From positions 806,001-870,000 of the forward strand of contig JAIUME010000001.1 of NCBI GenBank assembly GCA_022565695.1: a stretch of 64,000 nt of DNA. The letters run 5' to 3'. Shown here in pieces: positions 8,866 through 50,669 of the stretch. How positions within the stretch are numbered: the stretch's first letter is position 1; each line of letters opens with the position of its first letter. The notes beneath the pieces are model-generated. The model worked only from the letters and a program-made list of their open reading frames with translations, was not told where the DNA came from and made no database searches. The position numbers and the translations under genes are program-made. This DNA is from Alcanivorax sp. (lineage in GTDB: Bacteria; Pseudomonadota; Gammaproteobacteria; Pseudomonadales; Alcanivoracaceae).

Positions 8866-8951
8866 GCCGAAGTGGTGGAATTGGTAGACACGCTATCTTG
8901 AGGGGGTAGTGAGCCTAGCTCGTGCGGGTTCAAGTCCCGCCTTCGGCACCA
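8866..8951 (+). tRNA. tRNA-Leu (GAG anticodon)
   Basis: An 86-base tRNA with an encoded CCA end. The acceptor stem GCCGAAG (8866-8872) pairs with CTTCGGC (8941-8947), followed by discriminator A and CCA. The anticodon arm is CTATC-TTGAGGG-GGTAG, giving anticodon GAG. The long variable arm and the GGTTCAAGTCC T-arm are as expected for leucine. It lies in the secG-rimP gap with tRNA-fMet, as in Pseudomonas and E. coli. Confidence 0.96.
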
Positions 8952-8963
8952 TTAATTGTTTGC

Positions 8964-8979
8964 GGCGCGCATGCGCGCC
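8964..8979. other. Perfect 16-bp palindrome between the two tRNAs
   Basis: GGCGCGCATGCGCGCC is fully self-complementary and starts 13 bases after the tRNA-Leu CCA end. No T run follows. It may form the hairpin that bounds the tRNA-Leu transcript or mark a processing site. Confidence 0.5.
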
Positions 8980-9038
8980 GGCCCGGTTCGGGTGGCAGTA
9001 AGCGGAAAGTTTTTTATGTCGGAGATTCACGGAATCGT

Positions 9039-9067
9039 TTGACATAAGTGCCGTAAATCATTAAGGT
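9039..9067 (+). promoter_or_regulatory. Probable sigma-70 promoter for tRNA-fMet
   Basis: A perfect -35 box TTGACA (9039-9044) is followed after 17 bases by TAAGGT (9062-9067), a poor -10 match. A GC-rich stretch lies between it and the tRNA start at 9083. A GC-rich discriminator would fit stringent control of stable RNA genes. Confidence 0.5.
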
Positions 9068-9082
9068 TTGCGGCCAGTTTAG

Positions 9083-9159
<77 letters not shown>

Positions 9160-15650: not shown

Positions 15651-15772
15651 CCAAAAGCCGCTGAGCGCCGCCCGGTCCGGCGTACCAGGGGATCACCCCG
15701 CCATGACGGCGGCAGCTATAAATATGCATGGCTGTCCGCGACACGAAACGACGCATATTTGGAGAGAAACAC

Positions 15773-16042
15773 ATGTCACTGACAGCAGCACAGAAAGCCG
15801 AAATCCTGAAAGAGTATGGCCAGAAAGAAGGCGATACCGGTTCCCCGGAAGTGCAAGTAGCCCTGCTGACCGCGAACATCAACGGTCTCCAGGATCACTT
15901 CAAGGACCACAAGAAGGATCACCATGGCCGCCGCGGCCTGATCCGCATGGTAAACCAGCGCCGCAAGCTGCTGGATTACCTGGCGCGTAAAGATCACGGG
16001 CGTTATGCCAAGCTGATCAGCAGCCTGGGTCTGCGTCGTTAA
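15773..16042 (+). CDS. rpsO: 30S ribosomal protein S15
   Basis: S15 (89 residues) is a primary binder of 16S rRNA. ATG 15773 ([16 protein letters not shown]) is preceded by GGAGAG at 15761-15766 and matches the family start; the frame is open 15 codons further upstream but without similarity. Conserved [39 protein letters not shown] and the terminal LGLRR are spread over the protein. A terminator follows, and pnp lies downstream as in most gammaproteobacteria. Confidence 0.97.
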
Positions 16043-43831: not shown

Positions 43832-44350
43832 CTACAGTTGACTGATATCGTCGTGTCCGACATCCGGCGCGGCCTCATGGTACCAGACTCCCGCATCATC
43901 GCACTGCTGCCGATGGCTCGCCAGCGTGCTGCCGTCCGGCAGGGTCAGGGTGGGTGCCAGGTCGGCCAGGGGCACCAGCACAAAGGCGCGCTCCAGCATG
44001 CGTGGGTGAGGCACGGTGAGGCGGGGGTGGTGGATGGATTGTTCGCCGTACAGCAGCAGATCCAGATCCAGGGTGCGCTCGCCCCAGTGGCGCAGGCGCT
44101 CCCGGCCTGCGGCCTGTTCCAGGCCTTGCAGGGCGTCCAGCAGTGTCAGAGGCGGCAGGTCGGTATCGAGGGCGGCGACGGCATTGATGAAATCCGGCTG
44201 GTCTGCCGGGCCGACCGGGGTGGAGCCATAGAGCGGGGAGCAGCCGACCAGCCGCGAATCCGGCAGCCGGGCCAGGCCATCAAGCGCCCGGCGCAGTTGG
44301 CCGGCCGGATCGGCCAGGTTGCTGCCCAGGCCGATATGGCAGCGAATCAT
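43832..44350 (-). CDS. folK: 2-amino-4-hydroxy-6-hydroxymethyldihydropteridine pyrophosphokinase
   Basis: FolK pyrophosphorylates hydroxymethyl-dihydropterin, the step before FolP. The 172-residue protein has CHIGLGSNLADPAGQLRRAL, FINAVAALDT, RHWGERTLDLDLLLYG (the core HPPK signature) and TVPHPRMLERAFVLVPLADLAP. Its ATG overlaps the pcnB stop (ATGA), a coupling also found in Pseudomonas. Confidence 0.96.
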   Translation of the reverse strand: MIRCHIGLGSNLADPAGQLRRALDGLARLPDSRLVGCSPLYGSTPVGPADQPDFINAVAALDTDLPPLTLLDALQGLEQAAGRERLRHWGERTLDLDLLLYGEQSIHHPRLTVPHPRMLERAFVLVPLADLAPTLTLPDGSTLASHRQQCDDAGVWYHEAAPDVGHDDISQL

Positions 44351-45741
44351 GCGCTCTCGCCGCCACCACTGTTGCCACCACCACCGCCGCTACTACGACG
44401 CCGGCGCCGACGTTTGCGGCCGGTGCCGCTGTTGCCGGCGGCGGGGGCGCCTTTGGCTGCGGCGGCGGCCATGGCATCGCGGGCATCTTCGTCCACGGCC
44501 TGATAGTCGGTCCACCACTGGCCCAGGCCGGGGGGGATTTCGCCGGCTTCTTCGCGCAGCAGCAGGAAGTCATAGGCAGCGCGGAAGCGGGGATGGGTGA
44601 CCAGCTGGGCGGCACGGTTACCGTGGCGGCGCGGCAGGCGCGGTTGCAGGTCCCATATCTCACGCACCACTGAGGAGAAGCGGCGCGGAATGGCAATGGT
44701 GCTGACCTGCTCGGCGATCACTTTGCCGGAGGCCTTGTTCAGGGCCACGGAAGGCGGCATGCCGTCTTCGATGTAGCGCTCCATCAGTTGGCGCATGGGT
44801 GCCCATAACAACACGGCGAACAGGAATGCCGGGGTAACAGGTTTGTCCTGGGCCAGGCGTCGGTCGGTATTGATCATGGCCGCTTCCAGCAGCCGCTGGT
44901 CGCTGTCTTGCAGCGTCTCTGCGGTGGCCGGGAACAAGGCATCGAAGAGACCGTAGTCCTGCAGCAGCTCCAGGGTGTATTCCGCATGGCCGCCGAGGAA
45001 CAGTTTGAGCATCTCGTCAAACAGGCGCGCCGCCGGCACTTGCTGCATCAGCGGTGCCAGTTCGTGAATCGGTGCCTCGGTGGCCGGATCAATGGTGAAA
45101 TCGAGCTTTGCAGCGAAGCGCACGGCGCGGATCATGCGTACCGGGTCTTCGCGGTAGCGCTGGGCCGGGTCGCCCATCAGGCGCAGAGTCCTGTCCTGGA
45201 TGTCCTGCATGCTGCCAGCGAAGTCGTACAGGGTGAAATCGGCAATGTTGTAGTAGAGCGCATTGACGGTGAAATCGCGGCGCAGGGCGTCTTCTTCGAT
45301 GTTGCCATAGACGTTGTCGCGCAGGATCTGGCCTTCGCGGCTATGGCTGCTGTCGCTGTCGCCGGGTTCCCCCAGGGCGCGGAAGGTCGCCACTTCGATC
45401 ACTTCAGGCCCGAACCGCACGTGCACCAGGCGGAAGCGGCGGCCAATGATGCGGGCGCGGCGGAAGATGCGCTCGATCTCCTCCGGCGTGGCATTGGTGA
45501 CCACATCGAAGTCCTTGGGCTGGATGCCGGTGAGGATATCGCGCAGGCACCCGCCTACCAGAAAGGCATCGAAGCCCGCCTCATGCAGCCCGTACAGCAC
45601 GTTGAGTGCGGCACGACTGATCTGCTTGCGCGAGATCGGATGCTGGTCGCGGGGGATGATCACGGGCTCTGTCAGCGTCCGGCGAGCACCGTTATCACGC
45701 CCGATGAGTCGTGTCAGAAAAGCCGGGATCTTGCGTAGCAC
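44347..45741 (-). CDS. pcnB: Poly(A) polymerase I
   Basis: PcnB adds 3' poly(A) tails that speed up RNA decay. The 464-residue protein has the nucleotidyltransferase core: FLVGGCLRDILTGIQPKDFDVVTNATPEEI with the catalytic DFD, then GRRFRLVHVRFGPEVIEVATFR, RRDFTVNALYYN and the RNA-binding helices. The tail is KRRRRRR followed by a Gly/Ser run; a basic tail is usual but the Gly-rich end is distinctive. GTG start at 45741. It lies downstream of the cbrB-crcZ region, as in Pseudomonas. Confidence 0.95.
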   Translation of the reverse strand: MLRKIPAFLTRLIGRDNGARRTLTEPVIIPRDQHPISRKQISRAALNVLYGLHEAGFDAFLVGGCLRDILTGIQPKDFDVVTNATPEEIERIFRRARIIGRRFRLVHVRFGPEVIEVATFRALGEPGDSDSSHSREGQILRDNVYGNIEEDALRRDFTVNALYYNIADFTLYDFAGSMQDIQDRTLRLMGDPAQRYREDPVRMIRAVRFAAKLDFTIDPATEAPIHELAPLMQQVPAARLFDEMLKLFLGGHAEYTLELLQDYGLFDALFPATAETLQDSDQRLLEAAMINTDRRLAQDKPVTPAFLFAVLLWAPMRQLMERYIEDGMPPSVALNKASGKVIAEQVSTIAIPRRFSSVVREIWDLQPRLPRRHGNRAAQLVTHPRFRAAYDFLLLREEAGEIPPGLGQWWTDYQAVDEDARDAMAAAAAKGAPAAGNSGTGRKRRRRRRSSGGGGGNSGGGESA

Positions 45742-45860
45742 TATAGGTAGGCCTGTCGGTTGGCGGTGGCAGTGATTGATCGTAAAGCGCGCAATGTTAA
45801 CCTGTATCCGGATTCAGGGCGACCCGGGGGCTGAACGCAGGGCCCAAGGAAGGGCAGAAA

Positions 45861-45893
45861 TGAAAAAGGGACCACAGCAAGCTGTGGTCCCTT
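45861..45893 (-). terminator. Strong rho-independent terminator of the crcZ-like RNA
   Basis: On the minus strand AAGGGACCACAGC, a two-base turn, and GCTGTGGTCCCTT make a perfect 13-bp stem (45866-45893), followed by TTTCA. It lies between cbrB and pcnB and matches the end of a discrete RNA rather than of cbrB, which stops 380 bases earlier. Confidence 0.92.
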
Positions 45894-46237
45894 ATAATTG
45901 CGCTGATTCTGTTATTGTTATTGTTTGTTTTGTTTTCTGCCTTGTGGTCACGACAGTCCGGTCATGACAAGCACTGCATTGGCTCGTGAAATTATTATTC
46001 TTTATGAGCCTTTAACGCCGCTGTTATTGTTGTTTGCTGGCGTGTGTTCATCCTGCATTCACCCTCGCCTCATTGCAACAATTTGAAAAACTTATATTTA
46101 TCAATGGCTTGGGCTGTTTTGGCTGAGTGAACGGTATGTTCACTGGTGAAGTGTGTAGTTTTGGTGTTACGCCGATGTGTAGGACGGTAACACCTGGGTC
46201 GCTTTTGGTCAGGAATGCTGTTTGTTGCGGCAGAGTA
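45866..46237 (-). ncRNA. crcZ: CrcZ-like Hfq/Crc-sequestering small RNA (candidate)
   Basis: The 530-base cbrB-pcnB gap has no convincing protein gene. Read on the minus strand it holds several A-A-N repeat clusters like the CA motifs that bind Hfq (with Crc): CAACAAACAG near 46227-46218, CAAACAACAATAACAG (46036-46021), AAAGAATAATAATTT (46003-45989), and a long cluster at 45937-45910. The RNA ends at a perfect terminator. In Pseudomonas, CrcZ occupies exactly this place, is about 400 bases long, is switched on by CbrB and titrates Hfq to relieve catabolite repression. The 5' end (about 46237) is a guess from a weak -24/-12-like GG-N10-GC at 46262-46249. Identity rests on position and motif content, not on an alignment. 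Confidence 0.78.
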
Positions 46238-46272
46238 AAGCGTTCCGCGCTGCATCTCTGCCCATGATTTTT

Positions 46273-47640
46273 TTATGCACCTGCCGTGCTGCGGCGGCGC
46301 GGAATACCCAGGCGCTGGCGGCGCTCCCACAGGCATTTGCGGCTGATACCCAGCTTCTGGGCCAGCTCGGTTTCGGTCATGGCGTCCTGATTCTCCAGCA
46401 CGAAGCGGGTGAAATAGTCCTCCAGGGACAGGTCTTCCTGGGGATCTTCCAATGGACGCCGGCTGCTGGTGCTGCTCGGGGTGCTGGCGGCAGCGGCGTT
46501 CAGGGCCAGTGCCTCGGGGGTAATCTCCGGGCCATCGGCAAGGATCACAGCGCGCTCGATGGCGTTCTCCAGCTCCCGCACGTTGCCGGGCCAGCTGTGT
46601 TGCGCCATGGCATCCAGGGCGCTCTGGCTGAAGGTCAGGGGCTGGCTGTTATGGCGCTCGCACAGGCGAGACAGCAGGGCGTGTGCCAGCAGGGCGATGT
46701 CGCTGCCGCGCTCGCGCAGGGGAGGGAGCTCCAGCTGCAGGATATTCAGGCGATAGAACAGGTCCTTGCGGAAGCGGCCCGCTGCCACCTGGGCATCCAG
46801 CGCCTTGGGTGAGGCCGCAATCAGGCGGACATCCACCCGGCGCGGCATGACGCCACCGATGCGGGTGATCTCGCCATCGTGCAGCAGGCGCAGCAGATGG
46901 GCCTGGGTTTCCATGGGCAACTCGCCGATTTCATCCAGGAACAGGGTGCCGCCATGGGCGTCCTCGATCAGGCCGGGCTTGGCTTCATCGGCGCCGGGCA
47001 GGGCGTCCCGCTCATGGCCGAACAGCTCTGCCTCCAGTTGCGGCCCCGAGATGGCGGCACAGTTCAGTGATACCAGCGGGGCCTGGGCGCGGCGACTGCG
47101 CTCGTGCAGCAGGCGCGCCAGCAGTTCCTTGCCGGTGCCGGCTTCGCCGGTGATCAGCACGCTGGTGTCCGTGGGGGCAACCTTCTCGACGCGGCGGAAC
47201 AGTTCCTGCATTGCCGTGGATTCCCCGAGCATGGCGCCGGTGGGGTAGCTGCGTGCCACGTCGGTGCGCAGCACGTGGTTATGCCGGCGCAGTTTGCCTT
47301 CCTTGAGAATGCGATTGACCGACAGGAGCATTTCGTCGTGGTCGAACGGCTTGGCGACATAGTCCACCGCGCCCAGGCGCATGGCATCCACGGCGGAGCG
47401 CAGGCTGGCGTAGCTGGTCATGATCAGAACGGGGGTGGGGTTGGCGCTGCCGATCAGATCTGTGCCGCCAGCACCGGGCAAGCGGAGATCGCTGATGATC
47501 AGGTCGAAGCTTTGCAGGGGGTGTTCCAGTGCCTGTTCTGCCGAGGCGGCTTCCACCACCGTATGCTCGTGACGTTCCAGCAGCTTGCGCAGGGCGCCAC
47601 GGATAACCGGCTCATCCTCAACGATCATGATATGGCTCAT
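46273..47640 (-). CDS. cbrB: NtrC-family response regulator CbrB, with altered GAFTGA motif
   Basis: 455 residues from the ATG at 47640 (MSHIMIVEDEP). The receiver domain has the phospho-acceptor D51 (LIISDLRLPG) and the switch Lys in AKPFDHDE. The AAA+ domain has Walker A GEAGTGKE and Walker B GGTLFLDEIGELP. The Fis-like C-terminal domain ends TETELAQKLGISRKCLWERRQRLGIPRR, characteristic of CbrB. The sigma-54 contact loop, normally GAFTGA, reads DALPGA (residues 212-217). In Pseudomonas CbrB activates crcZ and nitrogen/carbon genes with sigma-54; here that ability is in doubt. It lies directly downstream of cbrA. Confidence 0.92.
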   Translation of the reverse strand: MSHIMIVEDEPVIRGALRKLLERHEHTVVEAASAEQALEHPLQSFDLIISDLRLPGAGGTDLIGSANPTPVLIMTSYASLRSAVDAMRLGAVDYVAKPFDHDEMLLSVNRILKEGKLRRHNHVLRTDVARSYPTGAMLGESTAMQELFRRVEKVAPTDTSVLITGEAGTGKELLARLLHERSRRAQAPLVSLNCAAISGPQLEAELFGHERDALPGADEAKPGLIEDAHGGTLFLDEIGELPMETQAHLLRLLHDGEITRIGGVMPRRVDVRLIAASPKALDAQVAAGRFRKDLFYRLNILQLELPPLRERGSDIALLAHALLSRLCERHNSQPLTFSQSALDAMAQHSWPGNVRELENAIERAVILADGPEITPEALALNAAAASTPSSTSSRRPLEDPQEDLSLEDYFTRFVLENQDAMTETELAQKLGISRKCLWERRQRLGIPRRRSTAGA

Positions 47641-47735: not shown

Positions 47736-50669
47736 TCAGCCTGCATCCAAGTAGCTTGGCAGCGTAATCACAAATCGGGTCCCGTGTCCGTCAGCAATCG
47801 GGCTTTCTGCGCGAATGCTGCCGAAGTGGTCCTCAATAATACTGTAAACCAGCGCCAGACCAAGGCCGGTGCCGCGCCCGGGCGGTTTGCTGGTGACAAA
47901 CGGTTCGAACAGCGACGATGCCAGTTCGGCCGGAATGCCATGGCCCTGGTCTTCGATCATCACATCCAGCCGTTCTTCCTGGCGTTCGCTGCGGACGGTG
48001 ACCGGGTCATTATCTTGTGTAGCGTCCGCTGCATTGGACAGCAGATTCACGAACACCTGCAACAGGCGCTGGCTGTCGCCGCGCACCAGATGATCGGCGG
48101 GGCAGTCATTGCGGAACATCTGCTGGCGGTGATCCGGGTCCATCTGCAACAGGCTGATGGCCTCGTTGACGGTATCGCGCAGGGATACCGGCCCCTGTAC
48201 CGGCTGCGGGATGCCGCCGCTGTGGCTGAACGTCACCAGTGATTCGACGATGCGCGAAATGCGCCGGGTCTGTTCGACGATCTGCTGCGAGGCCTGGGCG
48301 ACCTCGTCGCCGCCGGCGTCGTGGTCCAGATTCTGCGCCAGGCAGGCGATGGCGGTGACCGGATTGCCGATTTCGTGGGCGACGCCCGCCGCCAGGCGGC
48401 CCACGGAGGCGAGCCGTTCGCTGTGCGTCAGCTGGGCTTCCAGCGCCCGGAGATCGGTAATGTCCTCGACAACGATGACCTGGCCCTCGGCGCGCTCCCC
48501 GGGCAGTGTGCCGACCACCTCGGATTTATGCAGGCTCAGCCAACGCGACTGGCCGCGCAACTGCACCTCGACCTGAGGCAGGCGCACTGTGTCACCCAGG
48601 GCGAAATCATGGAACACGACATTCCAGGGGCGCGGCAGGGTATTGAGCCGGGCACCGATGGTGCGCTGGGCGGTAACGCCGGTGAGGTGTTCCATGGCCA
48701 GGTTCCAGCCGATGATCTCGCCGTCTGCGCCCAGGGAGATGACCCCCATGGGGAGTTCCAGCAGCGTCTGCCGGTGGAAGCGGCGCAGGCTGTCCAGTTC
48801 GGCGGCCAGCCCGGAAAGCCGGTCGCGGTAGAGCTCCAGGCGCGACTCGATGAACTGGATGTCTTCGCTGGATTCGTTTTCTGCCTGGGGCTTGTAGGGC
48901 AAATGCTTGTCCACGATGCGGTGCGACACCGACGGCCCGAGCAGTCCGGACAGGTTGGTTTCCAACTGGTCGCGCAGTCGCCGCAGGGCATAGGGGCGCG
49001 TCTCGCTGCGGGCCTGGCCCAGGTCGCGCAGCGCCAGGGTGACTTCCCGCTCTGCCGTGACCGGGCCCAGGGGTTCGGTCAGGGAGGCGACGAAATCCTC
49101 CACGGTGTCGGCTTCGAGCTCCCAGCGGAAGGTGCGCCGCAGGCTGTCCACGGCACAGGTTTCGGCGGCGTTGCGTTCAGCGCGGCTGGACGGGGTGATC
49201 AGGGAGAAGATCACGAACACCACACCGTTGGCGACCACCGAGGCGATGGCCACGTGATGCCACTGGTGGGCGGTGGATTGATGGGAAATGCCCAGCAGGT
49301 CGAACAGCAGGGTGGGTTGCCAGTGCGGCATGACGATCGGCAGCACCAGTGCGGCCACCCACATGGTGAAGCCGGTCAGCAGGCCGGCAAACAGGCCCAT
49401 GCGGTTGGCGCCGGGCCAGAACAGTGCGCCGATCAGGCCGGGCACGAACTGCAGGGTTGCGACGAAGGAGAGCACACCGAGTTCGGTCAGGGTGTGGTGA
49501 TCGCCGGCGATGACGTAAAACATGTAGGACAGTGCCAGCACGCCGGCAATCAACAGGCGCCGGGCCCACAGCAGCCAGCGATACAGGCTTTCGTCCAGGC
49601 GCTGGGTGCGTGCCGGCAGCACCAGGTGATTGAGCGCCATGGAGGACAGTGCCAGGGCGGCAACGATCAGCATGCCGCTGGCGCCGGCCAGGCCGGCAAT
49701 ATAGGCCAGCATGGCACCGTGGCTGCCGCTGAGGCTGCCGACCGCCAGTGCATAGTAATCCGGCAGGCCGTCCACCTGGGCTGCGGTGGCCGTCCACAGG
49801 ATCACCGGAATACACAGGGCCATGATCAGCAGCAACAGGGGCAGTCCCCAGCTGGCGGTCATCAGCGCGCGCGGATTCAGGTTTTCACTGAAGGCCATAT
49901 GGAACATGTGCGGCATCACCACAGCGGAAACAAAAAAGGCCAGGATCATCGAGTGCCAGGTGCCGTCCTGTAGCGGGTAGTACAACCGGGCCAGGGCATC
50001 CGGGTTGGCATCCAGCCAGGCGGTGAGCCCGGCCGGGCCGTCGAAAACGCTGTACAGGCCGAGCACGGTCAGCAGCACGAAGGCGACGATCTTGATCAGG
50101 GATTCCACCGCAATCGCCACCACCAGGCCTTCGTGTTTTTCCCGGTTGGTGGCGTGCCGGGCGCCGAACAGAATGGCGAACAGAGTGATCAGCAGACAGA
50201 ACCAGAACGCCAGGCTGCCGGGGTGTGCCTCGCCGGTCAGTATCTGGATCGACTCGGCAACGGCTTTTACCTGCAATGCCAGCAACGGCAACATGCCGGC
50301 AAGCATCATCAGCGTGGTCAGGGCGCCGGCGAGACGGCTGCGATAGCGGAAGGCGAACAGGTCCGCCATGGAGCTTAACTGGTAGCTGCTGGTCAGGCGC
50401 AGAATCGGGGCCAGCAGAATGGGCGCCAGCATGAAAACGCCGGAGATCCCCAGGAAATAGGCCAGGAAGTTGTAGCCGTAGTGGTAGGCATAGCCCACGC
50501 TGCCGTAAATGGCCCAGGCACTGGCGTAGACGCCCAGTGAGAAAACATAGACGGCGGGGTGGCGGACCAGCCGTGCGGGCAGGAACCCGCGATCCGTAAT
50601 CCAGGCGACCAGAAACAGGAACAGCAGATAGCCGACGGCGACCAGAAAGACCTGGGTGAAACTAAACAT
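47736..50669 (-). CDS. cbrA: Sensor histidine kinase CbrA
   Basis: 977 residues, close to the 983 of P. aeruginosa CbrA. The first 480 residues are a sodium/solute symporter-like (SSSF) module with about 13 membrane segments (starting MFSFTQVFLVAVGYLLFLF); CbrA proteins have been linked to histidine uptake as well as sensing. A cytoplasmic linker, a PAS domain (about 640-740, LELPMGVISLGADGEIIGWN) and a kinase core follow, with phospho-acceptor H765 (AAGVAHEIGNPVTA), N box NLLSNAADA and G boxes EDQGHGIP and GRGTGLGLALV. It acts with CbrB in carbon/nitrogen balance. A CGGAG Shine-Dalgarno is present, and cbrX ends 21 bases upstream. Confidence 0.95.
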   Translation of the reverse strand: MFSFTQVFLVAVGYLLFLFLVAWITDRGFLPARLVRHPAVYVFSLGVYASAWAIYGSVGYAYHYGYNFLAYFLGISGVFMLAPILLAPILRLTSSYQLSSMADLFAFRYRSRLAGALTTLMMLAGMLPLLALQVKAVAESIQILTGEAHPGSLAFWFCLLITLFAILFGARHATNREKHEGLVVAIAVESLIKIVAFVLLTVLGLYSVFDGPAGLTAWLDANPDALARLYYPLQDGTWHSMILAFFVSAVVMPHMFHMAFSENLNPRALMTASWGLPLLLLIMALCIPVILWTATAAQVDGLPDYYALAVGSLSGSHGAMLAYIAGLAGASGMLIVAALALSSMALNHLVLPARTQRLDESLYRWLLWARRLLIAGVLALSYMFYVIAGDHHTLTELGVLSFVATLQFVPGLIGALFWPGANRMGLFAGLLTGFTMWVAALVLPIVMPHWQPTLLFDLLGISHQSTAHQWHHVAIASVVANGVVFVIFSLITPSSRAERNAAETCAVDSLRRTFRWELEADTVEDFVASLTEPLGPVTAEREVTLALRDLGQARSETRPYALRRLRDQLETNLSGLLGPSVSHRIVDKHLPYKPQAENESSEDIQFIESRLELYRDRLSGLAAELDSLRRFHRQTLLELPMGVISLGADGEIIGWNLAMEHLTGVTAQRTIGARLNTLPRPWNVVFHDFALGDTVRLPQVEVQLRGQSRWLSLHKSEVVGTLPGERAEGQVIVVEDITDLRALEAQLTHSERLASVGRLAAGVAHEIGNPVTAIACLAQNLDHDAGGDEVAQASQQIVEQTRRISRIVESLVTFSHSGGIPQPVQGPVSLRDTVNEAISLLQMDPDHRQQMFRNDCPADHLVRGDSQRLLQVFVNLLSNAADATQDNDPVTVRSERQEERLDVMIEDQGHGIPAELASSLFEPFVTSKPPGRGTGLGLALVYSIIEDHFGSIRAESPIADGHGTRFVITLPSYLDAG

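Follow-up and report, generated by a model that had tools for sequence, protein, structure and literature searches.

Does the DNA between cbrB and pcnB of an Alcanivorax sp. encode a CrcZ-type RNA, and if so, from which promoter and with which partners would that RNA act? In Pseudomonas aeruginosa, it is Hfq rather than Crc that binds CrcZ; CrcZ attaches to the distal face of this protein and draws it away from A-rich translation starts, and Crc, which does not bind RNA itself, contributes to repression (PMC4063720). In Pseudomonas, crcZ is transcribed from a sigma-54 promoter under CbrB control (PMC6296734). A preliminary description of the Alcanivorax locus had proposed a distant CrcZ counterpart in a non-Pseudomonas lineage and, with it, an Hfq/Crc decoy mechanism wider than the genus. 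The window analysed here is the whole stretch of 64,000 nucleotides that contains this locus.

Genes were assigned by open reading frame (ORF) calls and Pfam and NCBIfam searches of the window. The cbrB-pcnB gap, described before as 530 bases, measures 531 bases (45742-46272) and is flanked as follows.

44347..45741, minus strand: pcnB (poly(A) polymerase; TIGR01942, 532 bits), downstream of the RNA
46273..47640, minus strand: cbrB, a response regulator of 455 aa with an AAA+ domain and a conserved C-terminal HTH
47736..50669, minus strand: cbrA-like sensor kinase of 977 aa with HisKA and HATPase_c (ORF call, Pfam)

The names CbrA and CbrB were given from gene order and similarity to Pseudomonas loci, with no family model behind them. 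The N-terminus of the CbrA-like kinase had no Pfam match to an SLC5-type domain at E<=1e-5 and was read as SLC5-type by eye. The closest named relative of the CbrB protein is that of Alcanivorax limicola (95% identity); from this match and from locus L069 (Alcanivorax sp. 1008), the window's own family (f1) was taken to be Alcanivoracaceae. CbrB was present in 45 of 46 own-family genomes at E<=1e-100, the remaining genome being 64% complete. The 45 family gaps span 8 genera, and two of them (L122 and L166) are cut by contig ends. Two short ORFs overlap the gap of the window (88 aa, 46070-46336, minus strand; 63 aa, 45776-45967, plus strand). Elsewhere in the window, Rfam matches marked a ribosomal S15 leader and two tRNAs (15708-15829 and 8866-9156).

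On the minus strand of the gap, a small RNA gene with the following elements was predicted.

45866..46043, minus strand: predicted CrcZ-like small RNA, about 178 nt plus a T tail, its start placed by inference about 7 nt past the -10-like element
46015..46043, minus strand: hairpin 1 (ACGCC/GGCGT), whose loop holds the first CA motifs
45981..46010, minus strand: hairpin 2 (GGCTC/GAGCC), whose loop holds AAGAATAATAA, also given as AATAATAA
45947..45968, minus strand: hairpin 3, variable across the family
45911..45936, minus strand: A-rich tract, unpaired, in which three AAYAAYAA motifs overlap
45899..45910, minus strand: the 12-mer AGAATCAGCGCA, left unpaired by the fold prediction and almost unchanged across the family
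45866..45893, minus strand: intrinsic terminator hairpin, followed by T-rich sequence

Seven overlapping AANAANAA motifs were counted on the minus strand of the gap (shuffle mean, 0.76; reached in 1 of 2000 shuffles), together with six AAYAAYAA motifs (shuffle mean, 0.17; reached in 0 of 2000 shuffles), and neither motif occurred on the plus strand of the gap. AAYAAYAA has 10 positions on both strands of the 64-kb window, 6 of them inside the gap. The A-rich cluster CAAACAACAATAACAG (46036-46021) and the 28-base A-rich stretch (45937-45910), both on the minus strand, lie where the preliminary description had placed them, with motifs beyond chance in shuffles. The perfect 13-bp terminator also holds, as an inverted repeat of 13 bp around a 2-base centre, in which the tools see a hairpin of 12 bp with a loop of 4 bases. 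The fold of the predicted RNA was better than that of all 200 shuffles (z -4.32). The range first given for the RNA, 45866-46260, takes in the promoter and the enhancer; the likely transcript (about 46043-45866) lies within it.

CA motifs and the promoter element described below are kept in 45/45 family gaps, and every own-family genome with a cbrB match (45) retains the predicted RNA gene. A terminator script delimited 40 of the 45 family RNAs and found no terminator in five (L122, L125, L160, L166, L169). The 40 RNAs carry a mean of 10.6 CA motifs, compared with 1.2 in shuffles, and, as delimited by the script, measure about 177-199 nt, against about 400 nt for CrcZ. Twenty-eight of the 40 were aligned (alignment A2). 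Three helices pair in 94.7% of cells, compared with 35-48% when slid, and almost all double changes fall in the terminator; hairpins 1 and 2 therefore rest on conservation more than on covariation. By a loose script, a stem of at least 4 bp was possible at both hairpin places in 40/40 RNAs, and the first loop contained AANAANAA in 33/40.

The Rfam CrcZ model (RF01675) had no match in the window at its gathering cut-off of 95 bits, and when run on only 701 bases it scored 12.7 bits (E 0.46) on the correct strand; plain RF01675 membership was rejected on these results. The cut-off was passed by 2 of 57 genomes, none of them own-family. Weak matches (E<=10) were seen in 8/36 own-family genomes, not including the window's own, with the best match inside the cbrB-pcnB gap in six of the eight and elsewhere in two; at the same threshold, the model also matched weakly in 4/14 control genomes. 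Among 12 named loci, CrcZ was found at E<1e-8 in three (two Marinobacter and Aestuariicella), more weakly in three, and not in six, including both Alcanivorax. A family model built from the 28 RNAs (R1) gave its best match in the crcZ gap of a relative (L259; E 1.9e-5, 38.7 bits) and, at E<=1, had 20 matches beyond the window, spread over 18/36 other sources; some of these were checked for their place.

Homology with CrcZ is thus strong by position and architecture and weak by RNA sequence. Like CrcZ, the window RNA lies between cbrB and pcnB in the order cbrA-cbrB-RNA-pcnB and has a CbrB enhancer-like site, many AAN/CA motifs and a terminator. It differs from CrcZ in predicted length (about 178 nt against about 400 nt), in the lack of a sigma-54 box in its gap where CrcZ has a sigma-54 promoter, in a family-specific 12-mer, and in that CrcZ has Crc as a partner, whereas Crc was not found in the window's family. 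The RNA looks like one that works as CrcZ does, from the place of crcZ below a CbrB enhancer, and is not filed as CrcZ because it scores far below the Rfam cut-off, has half the length, and belongs to a family without a found Crc. What stands of the distant counterpart is thus a candidate CrcZ-type RNA in the syntenic gap, family-wide; the Rfam match, the length and the sigma-54 promoter do not follow. The CbrA/CbrB-CrcZ logic is also found outside the genus Pseudomonas in Azotobacter; Azotobacter lies within Pseudomonadaceae, unlike the window's lineage, in which Crc was not found (PMC6292655). An Hfq-bound RNA of Acinetobacter baumannii with A-rich motifs, sRNA99, has been likened to CrcZ by its authors (PMC12802169) and is compared here by description.

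Partner genes were sought in the window's genome and its relatives. The genome encodes Hfq (101 bits) and RpoN (483 bits); sigma-54 itself has therefore not been lost. The Hfq of this genome (L085) reads VSIFLVNG. We take the E. coli protein to read VSIYLVNG, which would put the F of the window's Hfq at the place of Y25 on the A-binding distal face. The Crc query combined the aligned Crc proteins of Pseudomonas, Marinobacter and Microbulbifer, of which the first matches solved Crc structures. At E<=1e-25, it matched 125 of 193 relatives: 0/46 own-family genomes as against 125/147 others. NCBIfam labels Crc 'exodeoxyribonuclease III', so some of the weaker matches outside the family may be such nucleases. 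PF03372 detects Crc in Pseudomonas, Marinobacter and Microbulbifer, and the four PF03372 proteins of the window's genome were read by eye as non-Crc and rejected; presumably, one is exonuclease III and three are other proteins of the endonuclease/exonuclease/phosphatase type. The genome search for both partners therefore returned hfq and no crc, and the proposed Hfq/Crc partnership is not supported, since Crc was found neither in the window's own genome nor in the 46 family genomes.

The activator and the promoter of the gap both depart from the Pseudomonas arrangement at the following positions.

46990..47007, minus strand: DALPGA at residues 212-217 of CbrB, where the sigma-54-contacting loop GAFTGA would be expected (alignment)
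46073..46078, minus strand: -35-like TTGCAA, a conserved hexamer
46050..46055, minus strand: -10-like CAGGAT, 17 bp past the -35

The CbrB of the window has lost GAFTGA and kept the AAA+ Walker motifs, the receiver and the HTH. GAFTGA occurs in 0/45 family CbrB proteins, whose loop variants include GAFEGA (L118), GAFAAA (L160), GAFAGA (L169) and many shortened forms. A change of Thr/Ser to Pro, as in DALPGA, is favoured in this loop (PMC3162934).

A sigma-54 box was likewise found in 0/45 family gaps, and a sigma-54 site in the window gap was rejected on the box search and position weight matrix (PWM) scores. The box TGGCA[CT]-N7-GC was present in 121/123 pcnB-linked loci with GAFTGA (58/58 in set A, named genomes L001-L072; 49/51 in set O, order relatives; 14/14 in set D, divergent additions). 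The two misses are L279 and L318. The gap of L318 measures 136 bases and lacks CA motifs; the RNA is seemingly lost from it, and GAFTGA is kept. The best PWM score had a median of 22.1 in the 123 GAFTGA gaps, on which the PWM was trained, and a median of -4.4 (maximum 5.6, within the shuffle range) in 54 gaps without GAFTGA. Loci were considered linked when pcnB lay within 1600 bases. Thirty unlinked GAFTGA loci (13 with and 17 without the box) were left out for a contig end or no pcnB nearby; 13 of the 17 box-less ones have no CA motif. L075-L079 were left out of set A (no pcnB; about 41% identity). Sets A and O retain redundant entries, and L029 and L286 look like one genome. The order survey covered 70 chosen non-family places among the matches listed, with divergent families added.

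In place of the box, TTGC[AC][AT]-N17-CANNAT was found in 45/45 family gaps (L115 with TTGCCA), compared with 11/1800 shuffles; the pattern also occurred at spacers of 12 (2 loci) and 25 (1 locus). In 26 representatives, conservation was 1.79 and 1.59 bits per base in the two hexamers, 0.56 in the spacer, and 0.71 in the 50 bases upstream. The match to the E. coli sigma-70 consensus is weak (4/6 and 3/6), and a consensus promoter scan of the gap found no promoter.

Loop state and sigma-54 box agree in 174 of 176 CbrB loci. In this count, L227 was scored by hand as 'no box', since its loose match sits past the CA motifs, and GAFSGA (L313) was scored as a loss; PMC3162934 groups Ser with Thr, and agreement is otherwise 173/176. 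A CbrB tree of 176 rows (175 different) was built without the loop by a quick search that gave long-branch warnings. It left out same-genome or near copies (L001, L069, L241, L244), L122 (cut short), set-D loci below 40% identity, rows shorter than 330 aa, and unlinked loci other than the family's, L073 and L238. The box was found in 0/53 tree rows without GAFTGA, with L227 set by hand. The 44 family rows group in a single clade with a support of 99, next to neighbours that bear GAFTGA. On this tree, the loop label requires 6 changes, and well supported branches force at least 4 of these; such counts do not tell gain from loss, and several rows have long branches. Four independent loop/box contrasts could be drawn on supported branches, 4 of them favourable in most pairings and 3 in a few; with a median sign-test p of 0.125, they are too few for significance.

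The same loop/box pairing appears in a SAR92-type group (L073, L074, L080, L227), with a different sigma-70-like promoter. In this group, the loop is missing and CA motifs remain; three of the four CbrB proteins (L073, L074, L080) also have altered Walker residues. TTG-N19-TANA[AG]T, with a 16-bp spacer chosen post hoc, was found in 4/4 loci, compared with 2 to 12 of 500 shuffles each. Four further loci that have lost the loop (L060, L238, L243, L313) have a short or cut gap with one CA motif or none, from which the RNA seems to be gone where the gap is not simply cut, and another (L208) has a long gap with 6 CA motifs kept. Crc loss was considered as the cause of the promoter change and rejected: three f29 genomes without a Crc match (G171, G144, G113; loci L202, L203, L205) keep GAFTGA, the sigma-54 box and 13-21 CA positions, and apparent Crc loss is there unaccompanied by promoter change.

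Upstream of the promoter element, two further sites were noted.

46099..46111, minus strand: IHF-like site CAAGCCATTGATA, by the IHF consensus
46165..46192, minus strand: CbrB enhancer-like site TGTTAC-N16-GTAACA, by the consensus of PMC8871633

The published CbrB enhancer has an F1-R1 spacing of 12-14 (PMC8871633); in the window, this spacing is 16, and the R2 part is not obvious. The full inverted pair GTTAC...GTAAC was found in 40/45 family gaps, and only the first half-site was clear in the other five (L116, L117, L118, L160, L169). The distance from GTTACC to the -35 is 111-113 bp in 41/45 family gaps and 101 bp in four, one helical turn apart; all four are among the five gaps with one clear half-site. 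In sigma-54 gaps, GTTACC lies 120-126 bp from TGGCAC in at least 76 of 121 and was absent from the range searched in 20. We assume that the sigma-54 box sits at -26 and the -35 hexamer at -35 of the predicted start. The commonest enhancer layouts of both promoter types then fall at about -147 to -149. A shift of the enhancer by one helical turn was considered and dropped, since the distances of 122-123 and 112 bp refer to different promoter elements; measured to the predicted start, the enhancer distance is nearly unchanged. The composite GTTAC-N95-122-TTGCAW-N17-CANNAT was found in 44/46 family genomes (misses: G017, with TTGCCA, and the incomplete G020), and its reversed control had 3 matches in 2 genomes. 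It occurs once per genome, save overlapping doubles in three and one extra match in G007; the exact layout is therefore nearly confined to crcZ. IHF-like sites were present in 24/45 family gaps and 56/121 sigma-54 gaps, compared with 51/2250 shuffles. From this conserved layout, we infer that CbrB still uses the enhancer in the family.

Taken together, the locus probably encodes a CrcZ-type, Crc-free Hfq decoy RNA of about 180 nt that is activated by CbrB at a sigma-70-type promoter. An Hfq decoy without Crc and with a changed promoter fits better than a distant CrcZ with Hfq/Crc. By analogy with Pseudomonas, the CbrA/CbrB pair would sense a poor carbon state. CbrB would bind TGTTAC-N16-GTAACA and, probably helped by IHF-bent DNA, activate the sigma-70-type promoter, the -35 of which is found about 112 bp further downstream. 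Having lost the contact loop, CbrB is unlikely to work with sigma-54. The AAN repeats of the RNA, exposed in the open tract and in the loops of two hairpins, would engage Hfq at its A-binding distal face and thereby draw it off A-rich translation starts. As Crc, the helper of Hfq in Pseudomonas, was not found, Hfq would act alone; the repeats are of the kind found in CrcZ and hfq is present, so the simplest reading is a decoy that targets Hfq by itself. We give somewhat better than even weight to a broader reading, in which the regulatory axis changed its sigma factor at least twice (in Alcanivoracaceae and separately in the SAR92-type group), with CbrB losing its sigma-54 contact and -24/-12 giving way to -35/-10. 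In Alcanivoracaceae, the enhancer would have stayed near its old distance (about 147-149 bp) in a layout nearly confined to crcZ, and Crc would have been lost, which would leave a dedicated Crc-free CbrB-RNA-Hfq switch.

Four alternatives were weighed against this scheme. At the level of the RNA, the main rival is a base-pairing, Hfq-bound small RNA (class II-like) in which the 12-mer is the seed and the AAN repeats merely load Hfq. The 12-mer could indeed be such a seed: it is invariant in 28/28 aligned family RNAs (L169 differs), and ATCAGCGC occurs in 44/45 family gaps (the sole miss, L122, is cut short) as against 0/58 and 1/51 other linked gaps. Outside the RNA, about 48 further places were counted in the 46 family genomes versus 1 for the reversed pattern, an excess that codon use may cause. 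However, among the 12 outside loci in a set of 30 returned, shared contexts were limited to three pairs (L334/L350, L338/L341, L344/L348), no context being common to more than two, and the repeats, at least 7, exceed what loading should need. A base-pairing role in place of a decoy is thus unlikely, if still the strongest competitor. That the A-rich sequence is an untranslated leader of pcnB, or chance, is barely credible: it does lie upstream of pcnB on the same strand, but a terminator with compensating changes separates the two, and the promoter and CA motifs are kept in every family gap.

At the level of transcription, the promoter may be a constitutive sigma-70 promoter that CbrB no longer activates, the enhancer being a relic or a repressor site. 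GAFTGA-less regulators of the TyrR type can repress. So do some others, such as Caulobacter NtrC (PMC10274813); the lost loop, the -35/-10 element, and the five gaps with one clear half-site would suit such a change. Against it, all 45 family gaps, from 8 genera, have a GTTACC half-site at 111-113 or 101 bp upstream of the -35, the receiver and HTH of CbrB are conserved, and a site so far upstream is unusual for simple repression; we regard this alternative as doubtful and rank it behind base pairing. Continued use of sigma-54 by CbrB through a degenerate -24/-12 site would agree with the presence of rpoN, but it is very improbable given PWM scores within shuffles and the absence of GAFTGA from all 45 family proteins. 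The preferred reading, activation by CbrB at a sigma-70-type promoter, has precedents. GAFTGA-less regulators at sigma-70 promoters include R. capsulatus NtrC, Caulobacter NtrC, TyrR, DhaR and HupR (PMC10274813; PMC3162934). The window's CbrB resembles these in the lost loop and the kept AAA+ domain and HTH, and the gene next door has a candidate sigma-70-type promoter. It differs in that a joint change of the activator and one of its target promoters can be followed across a clade, the enhancer being retained, and in that activation is here a prediction.

The new point is transcription: judging from the sequence comparisons, promoter and activator both appear to have changed between RNA polymerase types. 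In open-licence PMC literature, no paper joining CrcZ with Alcanivorax or Marinobacter was found, CbrB with Alcanivorax led to a community study only, and none of the matches listed joined CbrB with GAFTGA loss. The prediction is sharp, as it concerns one promoter, one enhancer distance and one loop. Alcanivorax offers a natural test of what a CrcZ-type decoy does without Crc, and of an enhancer-binding protein moving from sigma-54 to sigma-70 with its target kept. For carbon-source control in hydrocarbon degraders, the locus suggests where to look.

CbrAB has been stated to be exclusive to Pseudomonadaceae (PMC8871633; PMC6296734). CbrB with a CrcZ-like gap was found in Marinobacter, Microbulbifer, Gilvimarinus, Cellvibrio, Aestuariicella, Nitrincola and others, assigned at the level of CbrB only. 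The named non-Pseudomonadaceae loci show pcnB linkage, the sigma-54 box and CA motifs and, for CbrB, seem to speak against the Pseudomonadaceae-only claim. Of the idea of a mechanism wider than the genus, the presence of candidate CrcZ-type gaps in many non-Pseudomonadaceae is supported; the Hfq/Crc part is not, in the window's own family. In three loci (L026, L003, L051), the gap after cbrB holds 30-35 overlapping AANAANAA positions, compared with 7 in the window, and these CA arrays are possibly enlarged decoys.
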